From: Mesorhizobium loti R88b
Lineage (GTDB): Bacteria > Pseudomonadota > Alphaproteobacteria > Rhizobiales > Rhizobiaceae
Direction: 5' to 3'
Assembly (NCBI RefSeq): GCF_013170845.1
Contig: NZ_CP033367.1
Coordinates: forward strand, 2,109,001-2,173,000
Length of the DNA stretch: 64,000 nt
The first letter of the stretch is position 1, and each line of letters starts with the position of its first letter. Shown one piece after another: positions 29,325-36,199 of this stretch. The notes beneath the pieces are model-generated. The model saw nothing but the letters and a program-made list of their open reading frames with translations, was not told the origin of the DNA and searched no databases. The translations under genes and the position numbers were made by a program.

Positions 29325-30770
29325 TCAGGCGCCAGTCTGCCAGGGCAGTGTCGCCTCGTAGGCCGCCGCCGCCTTCAGCACGGCAAGGTCGCCGCGCGGG
29401 CGGCCGATCAACTGCATGCCCATTGGCCGGCCCATGTCGTCGAAACCGACGGGAACATTGACCGCCGGACAGCCGCCCAGCGTGGCGTAGGCGGAAACCT
29501 GCATCCAGCGGTGATAGCTGTCCATCGCCCGTCCGGCGACCTCGCGCGGCCAGTGGGTACCGACTTCGAAGGGGAAGACCTGTGCGGTCGGCAGGGCGAT
29601 GAGGTCGAAGCGGTCGAAGATCGACAGCAGCGTGCGGTGCCAGGAGGTGCGCACGACCGAGGCCGCGCGGATTTGCGGCGCTGTCAGCCGCATCGCATTC
29701 TCGACTTCCCAGATGGCTTCGGGCTTCAGCAGGCCGCGTCTGGCGGGATCGTCGTAGTGGATTTTGAGCGCGCAGCCGCTGCTGGCCTGGCGGAGCGTCA
29801 CGAAGGCCTGCCACAGCGCTTCGAAATCGAAGTCCGGCAACAGGGGTTCGGCTGGGAAGGATGCATCCGAGAACCGGCCGAGTGCCGTCTCGCACAGCTC
29901 AAGTATGCCGGGTTCGATCGGCAAATGGCCGCCGAGGTCACTGAGCCAGGCGATGCGACCGCCGGCTGACGGGACTGCGAGCCCTTCGAGGAACGAGCCG
30001 GGTTTCTCATAGGACAAGGGCGCCCGCGGGTGGTAGCCCGACTGCACGTCGAGCAGCAGCGCCATGTCGGCGACGTTGCGGCCCATCGGCCCCTCGACGC
30101 CCATCTGCGCATGAAAGACCTCGAAGTCCGGCCCGCCGGGCACAAGCCCTTGCGACGGTCGGAAGCCGTAGACATTGTTCCAGGCTGCGGGATTGCGCAG
30201 CGAGCCGCCGAAGTCGCTGCCGTCGGCGACGGGCACCATGTCCAGCGCCAGCGCCACCGCCGCACCGCCGCTCGACCCACCGGCGGTGAGCGCCGGATCG
30301 AATGCGTTCAGCGTCGGCCCGAAGACGTTGTTGTAGGTGTTGGATCCCAGCCCGAATTCGGGGACATTGGTCTTGCCGATGATGATGGCGCCGGCGTCGC
30401 GAATGCGCTCGACGAAGAAATCGTCTTCATGCGGCACGAAATCGGCGAAGATCGGCGAGCCGAAGGAGGTCCTGAGCCCGGTGGTCGAGGCGAGGTCCTT
30501 GATAGCGATCGGCAGGCCGAAGAGCGAACCGGTTTCGCCCTTCCGCTTGTTATCGGCTGCGTCGGCCTCACGCAGGATGTCGCTGCGGTCGCGCAACGAG
30601 ACGATGGCGTTGACCAGCGGGTTGACCGTCTCGATGCGGTCGAGGAAGGCGGTCACTACCTCGCGTACGGAAAGCTTCTTGTGGCGGATCGCGTCGGCCA
30701 GTTCGACAGCGGACAGGCGGCAGGTGTCGCCGGCCGGCGGCACGGAATGTTTGGTTTGGGGGCGCATCAT
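29325..30770 (-). CDS. Amidase (amidase signature family)
   Basis: This enzyme of about 481 residues belongs to the amidase-signature family. The Ser-cisSer-Lys triad is visible: GLPIAIKDLAST near residue 83 (Lys), TAGGSSGGAAVALA near residue 155 (cis-Ser) and DGSDFGGSLRNPAAW near residue 178 (nucleophile). No signal peptide is present. The family includes fatty-acid amide, indole-acetamide and glutamyl-tRNA amidases; absence of gatC/gatB nearby makes GatA unlikely. ATG at 30770 (or 30767) lies one base after the ribokinase stop, so the pair is co-transcribed. Confidence 0.88.
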   Translation of the reverse strand: MMRPQTKHSVPPAGDTCRLSAVELADAIRHKKLSVREVVTAFLDRIETVNPLVNAIVSLRDRSDILREADAADNKRKGETGSLFGLPIAIKDLASTTGLRTSFGSPIFADFVPHEDDFFVERIRDAGAIIIGKTNVPEFGLGSNTYNNVFGPTLNAFDPALTAGGSSGGAAVALALDMVPVADGSDFGGSLRNPAAWNNVYGFRPSQGLVPGGPDFEVFHAQMGVEGPMGRNVADMALLLDVQSGYHPRAPLSYEKPGSFLEGLAVPSAGGRIAWLSDLGGHLPIEPGILELCETALGRFSDASFPAEPLLPDFDFEALWQAFVTLRQASSGCALKIHYDDPARRGLLKPEAIWEVENAMRLTAPQIRAASVVRTSWHRTLLSIFDRFDLIALPTAQVFPFEVGTHWPREVAGRAMDSYHRWMQVSAYATLGGCPAVNVPVGFDDMGRPMGMQLIGRPRGDLAVLKAAAAYEATLPWQTGA

Positions 30771-30771
30771 C

Positions 30772-31677
30772 TCAGCGGGTTTCCTGCAAAGCCTGATCGA
30801 CATCCATGGCCAGCGGGATCGCCGGCTGGGCGCCAGGCTTCAGGCAGGCCAGCGACCCAGCCGCACCGGCGCGCGCCAGTGCCTTGTCGAGGGCCAAGCC
30901 GGACGACAGGCCGGCGGCGAAATAGCCGCAGAAGGTGTCGCCGGCGCCGACCGTGTCGACAGGGGCGATCTTCATCGCCGGAATAGTAAGGAAATCGGTC
31001 GGGGTCGCGGCCATCACGCCGTCGCCGCCGAGCGTGACGACGATGGTACGGCCGGTTTTCGCCGCGAAGTCACGCATGCGTGCCGCCCGATCGCGGCCAT
31101 TCAGCTTCAGCGCCTCGCCATAGAGGTCGAACTCGGTCTCGTTGGCAACGGCATAGTCGGCCTTGCCGAGAAACGCGGCTGCTTGACCCTGGAAGGGTGC
31201 GGTGTTGAGCACGGTGATGGCGCCGGCGGCTCTTGCCTGGTCGAGCGCGGCATCGACGGTCGCCAGCGGGATCTCATGCTGCAGCAGCACGACATCGCCC
31301 TTTTTCAGGAAAGCCTTGGAAAGGTCGCCGGGCAGAACCGAAGCGTTTGCGCCGGGGACCACGGCGATGATGTTTTCGCCGTCGTCGCCGACCATGATCA
31401 AGGCCGTGCCGGTCGAGGCAAAGGTTTCTCCCACGCCAGACAGGTCAACCTTGGCTTCGCGCAGCAACGCCAGCGCCTCGGCGGCGAAACTGTCCTTGCC
31501 GACCGCGCCGACCATGCGCACCGAGGCGCCGGCGCGCGCGGCAGCCAGCGCCTGGTTGGCGCCCTTGCCGCCGGGTGCTGTGGCGAAACCGGAACCGCTG
31601 ACCGTTTCGCCGGGGCTCGGTAAACGGTTGACATTGGCGATAAGGTCGAGGTTGATCGAGCCGATGACGATAATCAA
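30772..31677 (-). CDS. rbsK: Ribokinase (PfkB family)
   Basis: This 301-residue cytosolic kinase makes ribose-5-phosphate from ribose and ATP. The first PfkB signature GGKGANQALAAARAGA is near residue 37. The second signature, DTVGAGDTFCGYFAAGL (about residue 240), contains the catalytic Asp in GAGD. The N-terminus IVIGSINLDLI and the substrate segment SPGETV are ribokinase-like rather than fructokinase- or adenosine-kinase-like. No rbs transport genes are adjacent; ribose could come from the nucleoside hydrolase encoded nearby. The amidase gene follows immediately. Confidence 0.9.
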   Translation of the reverse strand: MIIVIGSINLDLIANVNRLPSPGETVSGSGFATAPGGKGANQALAAARAGASVRMVGAVGKDSFAAEALALLREAKVDLSGVGETFASTGTALIMVGDDGENIIAVVPGANASVLPGDLSKAFLKKGDVVLLQHEIPLATVDAALDQARAAGAITVLNTAPFQGQAAAFLGKADYAVANETEFDLYGEALKLNGRDRAARMRDFAAKTGRTIVVTLGGDGVMAATPTDFLTIPAMKIAPVDTVGAGDTFCGYFAAGLSSGLALDKALARAGAAGSLACLKPGAQPAIPLAMDVDQALQETR

Positions 31678-31819
31678 GCAAGGCCTCCTGCCAGTCCAAA
31701 TTCAAGATGTCGGAGCGTTCGGGCGAACGCCGATCGTTCCAATCGCGCGGGAAGCTAGCCTGTAAGGCCGCGGCTTGCCAGACCACGCGAATGGTCCAGC
31801 TCAATTTGTGGCGTCGTGC

Positions 31820-32311
31820 CTATTCACAGCGCACGGTGACCGTGCCCTGGTAGTTGCCGGCAGGAAAAATACCGCTCGACTTGGTGGCGGTGAGATCGAC
31901 CTGCATGGGGTGGGTGCCGTTGACCACCCTTTGCGGCACGCTGCCGTTGACATCGACCCCCGAGCCATCGAGACGGAAGACCGAGGCGAAGGTCACATTT
32001 GTGCCGCCGCCGCTGGGCGCCGATGAGAATGCGGCAGGCGCCGGCGCTGAAACAGAATAACAATCAAGCAAATTAAGTATTGAGCACAGCAGGGAGTTTG
32101 CCACCACCGTGGCGCTGGCGCTCGATCCGCCTGCCTGTTTGGAGCCCAGTATGCTGATGGCGGGATTTGCGGTCATTTTTCCCGATGCCCCGACCATGAT
32201 GGTGCAGGTGCCGATGATCGCCGCCTGCACCGGAAGGCAGAAGCCGGCGAGGGCTGCCACCGCAAGCAGCGCGCGGCTATTTCTTCTTCCTCTTTTTCTT
32301 GCCATCGCCAT
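31820..32311 (-). CDS. Small secreted pilin-like protein, second paralogue
   Basis: This 163-residue protein has a basic N-region (MAMARKRGRRNSR) and a signal peptide ending near LPVQAA (about residue 30). The mature part is a Ser/Gly/Thr/Ala-rich beta protein. It starts with a Cys in GTCTIMVGASGKM and ends with PAGNYQGTVTVRCE, with a penultimate Cys. The paralogue at 33175-33645 has the same pattern. A disulfide between the first and last strands, as in chaperone-usher pilins, is inferred. The ATG at 32311 has AGGA at six bases and overlaps the preceding gene by 35 bases. I cannot assign a family; SCPU or DUF4402-like folds are the nearest I can suggest. Confidence 0.65.
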   Translation of the reverse strand: MAMARKRGRRNSRALLAVAALAGFCLPVQAAIIGTCTIMVGASGKMTANPAISILGSKQAGGSSASATVVANSLLCSILNLLDCYSVSAPAPAAFSSAPSGGGTNVTFASVFRLDGSGVDVNGSVPQRVVNGTHPMQVDLTATKSSGIFPAGNYQGTVTVRCE

Positions 32312-32795
32312 TTCCAGTCCTGAGGCTCCAGCCCTCGTTGGCCCATCCGGGTGATGCGGCCGCGGGAGCAGTTGTGGCAACGCTTGCCGTCGTGCCACCG
32401 TCGACATTAACGCCCATCTTCAACAGTTTGAGCTCCATCTGCAGGCGCTGCACCTCAAGTTCATAGAGCCGGCTGCAGTCGAGACGCTTCGGCGTCCGGC
32501 CAATCGGGATCACCACCCGGCCATAGGTGGCGACGTCATTGTTCGACTGGTTGTTGCCCCTGATGACGCCCAGATCGAGATAGGCACCGCTTCCGGAAAC
32601 CGCCGAGCGGCAGGTGGTGCCGTCGGCAGCGTGTACCTCGTCCTGGCCCTGGGGCAAGGTAACGCCGGGCAAATTGAAGCCTGTCTCGTTCTGGTTGAGG
32701 TTGTAGACATCCTGGGCCAGAGCCGGCGCGGCGCTTGCGGTGGCAACCGCGAGTGCCAGCGTCAGGACTTGCGATGTCCAAAGAACTTTCCGCAT
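32277..32795 (-). CDS. Secreted protein of unknown function with a lysine-rich tail
   Basis: This 172-residue protein has a signal peptide ending near ALAQD (residue 28). The mature segment YNLNQNETGFNLPGVTLPQGQ is followed by a region with two Cys (TTCRSAV and RLDCSRL) that may form a disulfide. A short amphipathic helix (ELEVQRLQMELKLLKMG) follows, and the C-terminus is extremely basic (KKKRKKK). I recognise no family. The ATG has AAAGG at seven bases and lies inside the 3-prime end of the chaperone-like gene (34-base overlap). Its own 3-prime end overlaps the next gene. The tight packing argues that the four products act together. Confidence 0.6.
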   Translation of the reverse strand: MRKVLWTSQVLTLALAVATASAAPALAQDVYNLNQNETGFNLPGVTLPQGQDEVHAADGTTCRSAVSGSGAYLDLGVIRGNNQSNNDVATYGRVVIPIGRTPKRLDCSRLYELEVQRLQMELKLLKMGVNVDGGTTASVATTAPAAASPGWANEGWSLRTGNGDGKKKRKKK

Positions 32796-33154
32796 ATCTG
32801 TGCCTTTATCTGGGTCTGCTGATTGGGAAAGGGGATGCTTTCGGTACAGATACGCACCTTGCGGTCGGGGGCGCCGTCAAAGGGCACGACCACAAGGACG
32901 GGGCGGGAAGCCTGCGAAGGCAGCTGGAAGACGCTGGGAGAGATTTTGGCCTCTACCGGCTGAAAATCCTGGTCGTAGACGTGGACTTCGATCTTGATCT
33001 TCTGGTCGTAGGGATTGGCCGGAAAAACGCGGACCGCGAAGACGTCGGTGAAACTGTTGACCTCGCCTCGCATCGGCGACATCGACTGGGCCACGGCGGC
33101 AACAGGTATCAGGCCGACGGCCAGTGCCGTCGCCATAGTTCCAAAAAATGTCAA
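32762..33154 (-). CDS. Periplasmic PapD-like chaperone, single N-terminal domain
   Basis: This 130-residue secreted protein has a signal peptide ending near AVAQS (about residue 23). The mature protein, about 105 residues, resembles the N-terminal Ig-like domain of pilus chaperones: VFAVRVFPANPYDQKIKIEVHVYD, a FQPVEAKISPSVFQL segment and SRPVLVVVPF in place of the usual donor-strand region. It has two Cys (RICTES, QICGKF). The second domain of classical PapD chaperones (about 220 residues in total) is missing. The start is a TTG at 33154, supported by AAGGAGG five bases upstream; an ATG at 33136 would truncate the signal peptide. Confidence 0.6.
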   Translation of the reverse strand: MTFFGTMATALAVGLIPVAAVAQSMSPMRGEVNSFTDVFAVRVFPANPYDQKIKIEVHVYDQDFQPVEAKISPSVFQLPSQASRPVLVVVPFDGAPDRKVRICTESIPFPNQQTQIKAQICGKFFGHRKS

Positions 33155-33174
33155 GGATGCCTCCTTCCCGAGGG

Positions 33175-33645
33175 CTATTCGCAGCGCACCGTCACCGTTG
33201 CCTGATAGTTTCCGGAGGCGAAGCGGTTGCTGCCGCCCTTGGTGCCGGCGAGGTGGACCGAGACGAGATCGGCACCGGGGGCAGTCAGGCTGGTGGCCGA
33301 GCCTGTCTCCGCGATCGTGTGGGTACCGCTGGCCGAATAGGTTGGCGTCCAGGTGATGGCGGTGGTGTCGGCGGCTGGCACCGTGGTGGTGGTGACCGGG
33401 TCTACGCTCAGCGACACACCTCCGGTGGTGGTAAGCGTGACCGTCCCCGCTGACCCGCCGCTGTTGTGCGAGCTCAGCGACTGGAGATCGGGGCTGACCG
33501 TCATCGTGCCGTTGGTGGCGACCACCAGGGTACAGGTCGCGGTGATCGTGCCGTTGAAAATGACATTCTGCGTCGTGGCCAACGCCGCTTGGTCCATACA
33601 GGCGACCAGCATGGCTGCACCAAAAGCGGTGCGAAACAACTTCAT
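33175..33645 (-). CDS. Small secreted pilin-like protein, first paralogue
   Basis: This 156-residue protein has a signal peptide ending near AALAT (about residue 24). The mature region is Thr/Ser/Gly-rich with predicted strands. It starts NVIFNGTITATCTLVVATNGTM and ends SGNYQATVTVRCE. Cys near the start and a penultimate Cys match the paralogue at 31820-32311. The ATG at 33645 has AGGAGG five bases upstream. It is the first gene of the four-gene operon and probably the most highly expressed. The nearest folds I can suggest are chaperone-usher pilins, SCPU or DUF4402 proteins. Confidence 0.65.
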   Translation of the reverse strand: MKLFRTAFGAAMLVACMDQAALATTQNVIFNGTITATCTLVVATNGTMTVSPDLQSLSSHNSGGSAGTVTLTTTGGVSLSVDPVTTTTVPAADTTAITWTPTYSASGTHTIAETGSATSLTAPGADLVSVHLAGTKGGSNRFASGNYQATVTVRCE

Positions 33646-33862
33646 CAAGACCTCCTATTAAGTCGGATCGCCCGAATTAATATTGGGTCATCATCGCTTT
33701 ATCATGGTTAATTTAGCGTAAACTAAAATATCATGTTAAAGTATCGACTGCGCAAACCGTGGGTTGTCTCAGGTTGCAATCAATAAAGCCGACATAATAA
33801 ATCTTATCAATACTTCCTGTATTTCTTCGATTTTTACGGTAATAGTCTGAAAAATCGATATT
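33646..33862 (-). promoter_or_regulatory. AT-rich upstream region of the pilin-like operon
   Basis: This 217-base gap is strikingly AT-rich (from about 33660 to 33860) in a GC-rich region. It contains runs such as TTAATATT, TAAATC-like and AATATCATG and is the only place for the operon promoter. Such composition is typical of regions bound by nucleoid-silencing proteins such as MucR/Ros in rhizobia, which is inference. No gene is seen within it. Confidence 0.5.
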
Positions 33863-34741
33863 TCAAGACGACACCTGACCTGCTTCCCAGCCCAGGATGG
33901 CCCGCTTGCGGGTCAGGCCCCAGTGATAGCCGGTGAGATCGCCGGATTTGCCGATGGCGCGATGGCAAGGCACCACGAAGGAGAGCGGGTTGGCGCCGTT
34001 GGCGGCGCCGACGGCGCGGCTGGCGCTCGGCGCGCCGATGCTGGCCGCGATCGAGGAATAGGTGCGCGCCTTGCCCATCGGAATCTGCAGCAGCGCCTCC
34101 CAGACGCGAACCTGGAAGTCGGTGCCGATCATGACGACATGCAGCGGCTGGTCGGGGCGCCACAGCGTCTGGTCGAAGATGCGCGCGGCATAGGGACCGG
34201 TCGCCGCCATGTCCTCGACATAGATGGCATTCGGCCAGCGGCTGGACATATCGGCGAACGACGCACGTTCCTCGCCCGGGTCGCTGAAGGCAAGGCCGGC
34301 AAGCCCGCGGTCGGTGGCCATGATCAGGGCGGTGCCGAAGGGCGAGGGGTGGTAGCCGTAGCGGATGGTGAGGCCAGCGCCGCGCGTCTTGTAGTCGCCA
34401 GGCGACATCGCCTCATGGGTGACGAACAGGTCATGCAGCCGGCCGGGACCAGACATGCCTAATTCGAATGAGGTTTCGAGCAGCGGCATGCCGGAATCCA
34501 GCAACCGGCGCGCGTGGTCCAGCGTCACCGCCTGCAGGAAGGCTTTGGGCGACAGGCCGGCCCAGCGGGTGAAGAGTTTCTGCAGGCCGGTCGGCGTCTC
34601 GCCGACTTCCTCGGCCAGCTCTTCCAGCGATGGCTGGTCGCGATAGTCGAGGCTGATCTTCTCGATGGCGCGGCGCACGATCTCGTAGTCGCTGCCTTGC
34701 GGCGTGATGTCCTTCTTGAGGACTGCGGCGTGTGTGCTCAT
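33863..34741 (-). CDS. Ada-like methylated-DNA-protein cysteine methyltransferase with AraC HTH
   Basis: This 292-residue protein has an N-terminal AraC-type HTH (about residues 20-115) and a C-terminal O6-alkylguanine-DNA alkyltransferase. The acceptor Cys lies in FVVPCHRAIG (about residue 262), preceded by the DNA-binding helix-turn-helix ASRAVGAANGANP. The N-terminal Ada domain with the phosphotriester-accepting Cys cluster is absent, so it is the shorter Ada type common in rhizobia. It repairs alkylated guanine and may activate its own gene. The ATG at 34741 has GGAG at eight bases; the frame is open to 34864. Confidence 0.9.
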   Translation of the reverse strand: MSTHAAVLKKDITPQGSDYEIVRRAIEKISLDYRDQPSLEELAEEVGETPTGLQKLFTRWAGLSPKAFLQAVTLDHARRLLDSGMPLLETSFELGMSGPGRLHDLFVTHEAMSPGDYKTRGAGLTIRYGYHPSPFGTALIMATDRGLAGLAFSDPGEERASFADMSSRWPNAIYVEDMAATGPYAARIFDQTLWRPDQPLHVVMIGTDFQVRVWEALLQIPMGKARTYSSIAASIGAPSASRAVGAANGANPLSFVVPCHRAIGKSGDLTGYHWGLTRKRAILGWEAGQVSS

Positions 34742-34875
34742 GGGACGATCTCCTTGATCGAAATATCGCCCCTTGGGGCGGCGATCGCCACCCGAAACTT
34801 GCCTTCTTGCCGATGGCTGACGAAAAAATCCTGGCGAGGCCAAAAACAGCAGGCTTCTGCGCACCGGTTCGAGGC

Positions 34876-35370
34876 TCAGCGCGCCTTGGCGGTAGCCAGC
34901 GCGCGTGAAAAGGCGGTGGCAAAACTCTCGCGGGATTCGGGATCGAGAAAGCCGCCGATCGGCACGTTCTGGCCTTGTCCTTCCACCGTCATCTTGGTGA
35001 TGCCGATCTCGGCGTGACGGGAAACCGAAAACCGCGCCCAGAACGGGTTGAAGCGATGCGCTTCCGATTTTCCCGAGGGTGCGGTCTTGCGGATATCGAG
35101 GCTGGTGCGCGAGACCGAAACCTCCTCGCGGGCGCGGGCGGCGCGATAGTTGGCGCGGAAGGCGATGTAGACCGCGATCACGTCTAGGCCGAAGAAGCCG
35201 AACACCGGCCAGGCGCCGCGCGACAGGAAAAACGCGCCGGTCACCAGCCAGCCGAACAGCAGCGCACCCATCAGGATCAGGAAGCCTGTCCTGCCCAGCG
35301 ACCGGTGTGGGGTCAGCAATGCGTGAAAGAAGGGCTCGTCAGCCTTAAACGAGGCGTTTGTGTCGCTCAT
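34876..35370 (-). CDS. DUF2244 domain inner-membrane protein
   Basis: This 164-residue protein has two transmembrane segments (about residues 28-48 and 53-72) and the DUF2244 family pattern, including FFHALLTPHRSLGRTGF at the N-terminus and FWARFSVSRH near residue 110. The family is found in alphaproteobacteria and has no known function. It is divergent from nth: the starts overlap in the 35360-35393 region, so the two share a promoter region of almost no length. Confidence 0.85.
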   Translation of the reverse strand: MSDTNASFKADEPFFHALLTPHRSLGRTGFLILMGALLFGWLVTGAFFLSRGAWPVFGFFGLDVIAVYIAFRANYRAARAREEVSVSRTSLDIRKTAPSGKSEAHRFNPFWARFSVSRHAEIGITKMTVEGQGQNVPIGGFLDPESRESFATAFSRALATAKAR

Positions 35371-35392
35371 GACGGGATATTATAGGAGGGAA

Positions 35393-36199
35393 ATGGCGAG
35401 CCCCAAGTCCAAAGATTCTTCCATGCCCAAAAATAAACCGTTGCCCGGACGGCGCGATGGTTCGAATGCCAAGCCGCGCCCACGGCCGGTGCGGCGAACG
35501 TCGCGCTACAGTCCGGCCGAAGTGCATGAGATTTTCCGGCGCTTTTCCGTGCAGCGGCCGGAGCCGAAGGGCGAACTCGAACATGTCAACGCCTTCACCC
35601 TGCTGGTGGCGGTGGTGCTTTCGGCGCAAGCAACCGACGCCGGCGTCAACAAGGCGACACGGGCGCTGTTCAAGGTTGCCGATACGCCGCAGAAAATGCT
35701 GGCGCTGGGTGAGGCCAAGGTCGGCGACTATATCAGGACCATTGGGCTGTGGCGCAACAAGGCCAAGAATGTCGTCGCATTGTCCGAGGCGCTGATCCGC
35801 GACCATGGCGGCGAGGTGCCTGATGACCGCGACGAGTTGGTCAAGCTGCCGGGCGTCGGGCGCAAGACCGCCAATGTCGTGCTCAACATGGCCTTCGGCC
35901 AGCACACGATGGCGGTCGACACGCATATTTTCCGGATCGGCAACCGGCTTGGCCTGGCGCCCGGCAAGACGCCCGAACAGGTCGAGCAGGGGCTGCTGAA
36001 GATCATCCCAGACGAATATATGCGTCATGCGCATCACTGGCTGATCCTGCATGGCCGCTATGTCTGCAAGGCGCGCAAGCCGGATTGCCCGGCCTGCGTC
36101 ATTGCCGACATCTGCAAGGCGCAGGAGAAGACGTCCAGCATTCCGGCGCCGCTGGTGCCGATCGCTCCGCTCGAAGCGGTCGCTGCTGACGATCAGTAG
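35393..36199 (+). CDS. nth: Endonuclease III (base-excision DNA glycosylase/AP lyase)
   Basis: This 268-residue protein removes oxidised pyrimidines and cleaves abasic sites. The helix-hairpin-helix is LPGVGRKTANVVLNMA (about residue 160), and the catalytic Asp is in AVDTHIFRIGNR (about residue 180). The 4Fe-4S cluster is C-x6-C-x2-C-x5-C, in VCKARKPDCPACVIADIC (about residue 225). The catalytic Lys lies in the HhH helix. The 45-residue basic N-terminal extension is longer than in E. coli but usual in rhizobia. ATG at 35393 has AGGAGG only four bases upstream. It ends inside the DUF2214 gene on the other strand (7-base overlap). Confidence 0.95.
   Translation: MASPKSKDSSMPKNKPLPGRRDGSNAKPRPRPVRRTSRYSPAEVHEIFRRFSVQRPEPKGELEHVNAFTLLVAVVLSAQATDAGVNKATRALFKVADTPQKMLALGEAKVGDYIRTIGLWRNKAKNVVALSEALIRDHGGEVPDDRDELVKLPGVGRKTANVVLNMAFGQHTMAVDTHIFRIGNRLGLAPGKTPEQVEQGLLKIIPDEYMRHAHHWLILHGRYVCKARKPDCPACVIADICKAQEKTSSIPAPLVPIAPLEAVAADDQ

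Follow-up and report, generated by a model that had tools for sequence, protein, structure and literature searches.

Chaperone-usher pili are assembled by a pathway in which a two-domain chaperone and an usher act jointly. Strand-exchange fibres described as forming without an usher include TasA with TapA and archaeal threads. In archaic (sigma) pili, e.g. Csu of Acinetobacter, CsuA/B is reported to polymerise via its donor strand with the chaperone present, while the tip subunit CsuE does not (PMC4654587), and FimA is reported to self-assemble in vitro without an usher, albeit at a lower rate and with lower stability (PMC11001860). The titles and abstract openings of the top-ranked literature describe no one-domain or usher-less PapD-type system. 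Here, we analyse a candidate for one, a four-gene operon (A to D) on the reverse strand of a 64,000-nucleotide (nt) stretch of Mesorhizobium loti R88b (NZ_CP033367.1, positions 2,109,001 to 2,173,000), which as a whole is termed the window and from whose first letter all positions are counted. We propose, with a probability of about 55%, that this operon encodes a minimal donor-strand system without an usher, in which B would lend a strand to A and D.

33645–33175, (−) strand: gene A, secreted, predicted pilin-like protein of 156 amino acids (aa) that carries a donor-strand-like segment at its N-terminus and a single conserved Cys pair
33154–32762, (−) strand: gene B, one-domain PapD-like protein of 130 aa, homologue of the first domain of archaic-type chaperones
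32795–32277, (−) strand: gene C, secreted protein of 172 aa, conserved core with two Cys, W-A-x-x-G-W near its end
32305–31820, (−) strand: gene D, 161 aa, a paralogue of A that has four Cys and lacks the N-terminal donor-strand-like segment
33708–33722, (−) strand: putative CtrA-type box TTTA-N7-TTAA, 63–77 nt upstream of the ATG of A
33656–33856, no strand assigned: promoter region of the operon, AT-rich, with a GC content of 0.35 compared with 0.63 for the window

With archaic pili, the locus shares the similarity of B to chaperone domain 1, including an Arg at the same place in strand F, and a predicted pilin-like A with a donor-strand-like motif that D, like a tip subunit, mostly lacks. 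It differs from them in that no usher was found, a second chaperone domain and a match to the spore coat protein U (SCPU) domain are missing, an extra gene C is present, and A and D possess a Cys-Glu end and an N-to-C Cys pair. The likeness to classical pili (type 1, P, F1) lies in B, matched to domain 1 of FimC, PapD and Caf1M and with basic residues that, placed by eye, coincide with the classical anchor sites of that domain, and in A, whose best structural matches are CfaB, Caf1, the PapG pilin domain and FimG; here, too, usher and second chaperone domain set the operon apart. TasA/TapA of the Gram-positive Bacillus resembles the proposed system in its usher-free donor-strand exchange and small strand-donating partner, a likeness drawn from description without structural or sequence comparison, and neither TasA nor TapA was among the 50 Foldseek rows shown for A. 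For the archaeal cannulae (CanA) and threads, the match may reflect merely a common arrangement, and we know of no PapD-like partner in them.

A conserved operon of four secreted proteins

Gene A starts with an ATG (33645; a TTG lies one codon earlier), B with a TTG (33154) that follows a GGAGG spotted by eye and recurs at this position in most Mesorhizobium loci, and C and D each with an ATG (32795 and 32305); the respective stops lie at 33175, 32762, 32277 and 31820. At D, a longer open reading frame (ORF) of 195 aa begins upstream, within C. The preliminary description of this DNA had the four genes overlapping or nearly touching and all encoding signal peptides, and both statements hold: a gap of 20 nt separates A from B, B and C overlap by 34 nt and C and D by 29 nt, and signal-peptide-like N-termini were recognised by eye on all four products. 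Pfam and NCBIfam yielded nothing credible for any of the four, and what few rows came up to E = 10 fell well short of the cut-offs. In the complete genome (one contig, 7.2 Mb), profile searches at E ≤ 1 recovered one B and two A/D-type genes, namely the operon's own. No Rfam match reached the gathering threshold within 30000–36000, and a search for a terminator-like site found none.

Scanning named genomes with C yielded 124 loci, the best 80 of which were kept; they belong to Mesorhizobium, Aminobacter, Aureimonas, Fulvimarina, Consotaella and Antarcticirhabdus, plus metagenome-assembled genomes. All four genes occur in the order A-B-C-D in 79 of these 80 (printed directly for 75, the other four differing through an over-long ORF being picked), and the last, L079, is ended by a contig edge. 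Since only the best matches were retained, the constancy of D may be overstated; A-B-C without D is seen in L020, L026, L036, L037 and L150. Some genomes count in both locus sets (e.g. L027/L088 and L023/L110). For 15 chosen loci and pairs at least 60% identical, the median ratio of nonsynonymous to synonymous substitution rates (dN/dS) was 0.22 for A (71 pairs), 0.14 for B (68 pairs), 0.15 for D (28 pairs) and 0.31 for the core of C (105 pairs, maximum 0.87). Kept gene order and these medians of 0.14–0.31 argue that the operon is more than a chance grouping, and a four-gene operon of secreted proteins is confirmed. Flanking genes vary between genera (15 loci, by eye).

In the bacterial family, B was found in 12 of 101 genomes, the window included, and at all 13 strong B loci (relatives and window) A-type genes precede B and C follows. 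Order-wide, C occurs in six of 297 genomes; two lie in other families, and each of these has A-B-C. Four further genomes of the same genus listed in that search gave no match. Class-wide profiles returned the window alone for B and, for C at E ≤ 0.01, two of 385 genomes, i.e. the window and G617, an A-B-C-bearing genome of another order with 10% contamination; absences in these class-wide searches are weak, as the first pass scores few candidates per genome. A weak class-wide match in G151 was dropped, having neither A nor B nearby. The same operon in related genomes had been named as a check, and the genes were found strictly together in the loci examined, with A-B-C reaching other families and another order. 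The protein collection holds 339 relatives of B, 152 of D and at least 696 of C; among 120 listed B relatives, those with a name at all are called 'hypothetical protein', 'uncharacterized protein' or 'transmembrane protein'. The closest relatives are near-identical, with C matching that of M. loti CJ3sym (L040) at 100% and the best B match at 99%.

Variations on the arrangement include a tandem A-B-C-A-B-C (L019:8653–11343) and A-B-C followed by two further A/D-like genes (L018:8955–11655 and L028:935–3665). The frame of gene B in L092 and that of gene C in L101 seem disturbed, through either mutation or a sequencing error.

B resembles the first domain of a pilus chaperone, and no usher was found with it

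A profile of B aligned with one of seven archaic chaperones at hhalign P = 4.1e-6, far above controls in score (best decoy 21.5, SCPU pilins 24.4). This comparison was confined to archaic chaperones: of 18 PapD_N-matching loci (16 rows of one search plus one each from genomes G021 and G040), the seven with an archaic appearance and an unambiguous ORF were used and 11 dropped, among them L131, in which the Arg-Pro spacing is absent. Chaperone-usher chaperones make up 46 of the 50 VIA rows for B; its other structural matches include VAP MSP domains. The motif R.C.ES[IVM]P is present in 78 of 79 B proteins, and its distance from the strand-F Arg to the Pro equals that of the seven chosen chaperones; in CsuC, the strand-F Arg of domain 1 has a known role. 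All alignments of B reach domain 1 only. Sequence and structural comparison thus support B as a one-domain PapD-like protein homologous to chaperone domain 1, as had been suggested before along with the lack of a two-domain chaperone. Single-sequence searches of the PDB with A and B gave chance rows only, and profile searches of PDB sequences gave mostly antibody chains for A (best E = 0.034) and Caf1M as top row for B (E = 1.3), all regarded as chance.

Two weak B matches, L016 (E = 3.7e-8) and L017 (6.8e-5), are accompanied by neither A nor C on 20 kb. Both proteins (L016:13382–13906, L017:9361–9915) are secreted, and in each a domain with weak similarity to B follows an F-x-G-x-V strand motif; they perhaps represent a self-complemented relative.

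The missing usher, likewise claimed from the outset, was borne out: PF00577 has no match in the complete M. loti genome, nor in 13 of 15 other operon genomes, and PF00345 (PapD_N) is equally without a match in these 14 of 16 genomes (G617 stands outside this set). In G021 and G040, a different contig bears a full archaic cluster (L120–L124), comprising an SCPU-like pilin, a 243–244-aa chaperone, an usher of about 800 aa and a tip-like protein; finding these ushers indicates that the PF00577 search works in such genomes.

A and D are paralogues that differ in a donor-strand-like segment

A and D are paralogous (phmmer E of about 3e-11 to 5e-11 when searched within a small set of ORFs) and share C-T-[LI] near the N-terminus and V-R-C-E at the C-terminus. 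The preliminary description had assigned them the same Cys pattern, which holds for these shared ends and not for the total, D having four Cys and A two (in 78 of 79 each). The AlphaFold2 model of mature A is confident (predicted local distance difference test, pLDDT, 96.7; mean 87 over residues 1–10), and in a Foldseek search with it the top 14 rows were chaperone-usher pilus subunits. The match is moderate and suggests a pilin-type subunit; an Ig (immunoglobulin)-like or pilin-like fold, on which the earlier interpretation depended, is thus predicted for A. Residues 1–11 of A occupy the position of a pilin donor strand, and the corresponding sequence motif is found in 79 of 79 A relatives vs. 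five of 79 D relatives.

A model of A and B as one read-through chain (35-row alignment) reached a predicted template modelling score of 0.59; here, A residues 1–11 fall below pLDDT 50 and B terminates in a 15-residue strand. This fits strand donation weakly, because the alignment differs from that used for A alone. An 85-row mixed alignment for the chain was discarded, as the C-terminal part of A-only rows was misplaced onto B.

With respect to SCPU, neither A nor D gave a row for the domain up to E = 10, and a profile comparison with four SCPU pilin sequences gave P = 0.096. Counting against this negative, some of 120 listed D relatives are named 'Spore coat protein U domain-containing' in UniRef, a name that our own sequence tests did not bear out.

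Gene C is constant in its core and variable in its tail

Across 46 aligned relatives, C has a core with the motifs D-E-x-x-x-x-D-G-T-x-C, Y-x-R, R-x-x-C-x-x-L-Y-x-L-E-x-x-R-x-x-x-E and W-A-x-x-G-W. It has no credible Pfam or NCBIfam match, and its profile retrieved nothing credible from PDB sequences. The weight given at first to the Lys tail finds no support: a C-terminal run of at least four Lys/Arg occurs in 55 of 80 loci and in no displayed alignment row from outside Mesorhizobium, and at 32277–32305 one stretch of DNA, read in two frames, encodes both the Lys-rich C-terminus of C and the basic signal-peptide start of D. The tail is lineage-specific. A C protein 70% identical to that of the window (P0340) is attributed to Bradyrhizobium sp. 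Arg314, outside the usual hosts, by transfer or mislabelling.

A proposed mechanism and its rivals

In the proposed donor-strand system, A to D would enter the periplasm by Sec, to judge from their signal-peptide-like starts. A, a predicted pilin-type subunit, would have an incomplete Ig-like fold, and by homology the last strand of B may fill the groove of A and D while its basic residues hold their conserved C-terminal Cys-Glu end. The N-terminal strand of A could then replace B in the next subunit, such that A polymerises, whereas D, mostly devoid of the donor-strand-like segment, could only accept a strand and would act as terminal or tip subunit. C would be a constant partner, perhaps an anchor or exit factor, and the product would either cross the outer membrane or stay periplasmic. 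As a whole, the preliminary interpretation as a minimal surface-fibre or secretion system is partly supported, and neither outcome named in advance as refuting it was obtained.

Several points weigh against this proposal. It is weakest at polymerisation in the cell and at exit, for which no route is known; A matches pilins only moderately, is modelled confidently on its own including its N-terminus, and could be stapled by its N-to-C Cys pair. These points favour an unlikely yet serious alternative, in which A and D are self-complemented secreted or periplasmic Ig-like proteins, B is their permanent partner or inhibitor, and no fibre forms. Such an arrangement sits poorly with the detectable homology of B to chaperone domain 1 and with A and D differing precisely in the donor-strand-like segment; the low-pLDDT A N-terminus and the B end strand in the chain model speak against it too, as a weak point.

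The remaining explanations concern B and the usher. An ordinary chaperone-usher system with its usher encoded elsewhere or too divergent finds a precedent in the archaic clusters on other contigs of G021 and G040, and PF00577 may overlook a very distant usher; the PF00577 and PF00345 searches, negative in 14 of 16 operon genomes, with PF00577 detecting the G021 and G040 ushers, make it very improbable, and B lacks the second domain. That the operon is a decaying chaperone-usher locus, having lost usher and second chaperone domain, would account for the sequence relation of B to archaic chaperones, the missing usher and the disturbed frames in L092 and L101, but is judged very improbable in light of the low dN/dS, and the kept gene order, the A-B-C sets in other families and another order and the constant extra gene C disagree with it as well. 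Least probable, B could be a periplasmic single Ig domain of other function (e.g. assembly inhibitor or envelope sensor) with A, C and D as partners; the solitary B-like proteins of L016 and L017 and the VAP MSP rows would suit this, while A and C flanking B at every strong locus, the predominance of chaperones among the VIA rows and the F-strand Arg in 78 of 79 proteins do not.

More tentatively, the donor-strand proposal can be extended to a Gram-negative usher-free fibre, possible though doubtful in its entirety, in which B charges A and an acceptor-only D, C anchors or exports, and CtrA provides a switch in one lineage. If true, no smaller donor-strand set of this kind would be known, and the set would be a candidate for a chaperone-usher pathway in an early or reduced state. 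A conserved operon with a predicted pilin-like subunit and only chaperone domain 1, mostly in genomes without a detected usher, makes the need for a second domain or usher directly testable, and the proposal gives a possible mechanism to four families nearly without functional names in Mesorhizobium, Aminobacter and Aureimonas.

An AT-rich promoter region with a CtrA-type box

The 201 nt at 33656–33856 are the most AT-rich of the window, in which no other 200-nt piece (50-nt steps) falls below a GC content of 0.365, and in 71 of 79 relatives the upstream region lies more than 0.08 under the GC content of its own locus. Aligning 18 upstream regions revealed a conserved TTAA-N7-TTAA, reported as the CtrA consensus (PMC11264516); the motif was noticed after viewing the alignment, with no advance prediction. 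Of 88 upstream stretches from relatives, 41 contain the exact box, many of these 41 being closely related, compared with an average of 0.5 (maximum 3) in 50 mononucleotide shuffles and 1.0 (maximum 4) in random same-locus pieces. The window box and that of L037 have one mismatch, and the best matches have two to four in the Aureimonas, Fulvimarina, Antarcticirhabdus and Consotaella loci as well as in L100, L107, L109, L018, L019, L020, L028, L036 and L150. In Sinorhizobium meliloti, pilA1 and flaA are reported to be directly activated by CtrA (PMC4433202). The box may place the operon under CtrA control in part of the family. By sequence, the putative box is present upstream of A in Mesorhizobium, Aminobacter and some relatives, and loci with different spacers among the 41 exact ones (L021, L026, L096, L104, L106, L112 and L118) carry it at −58 to −79.
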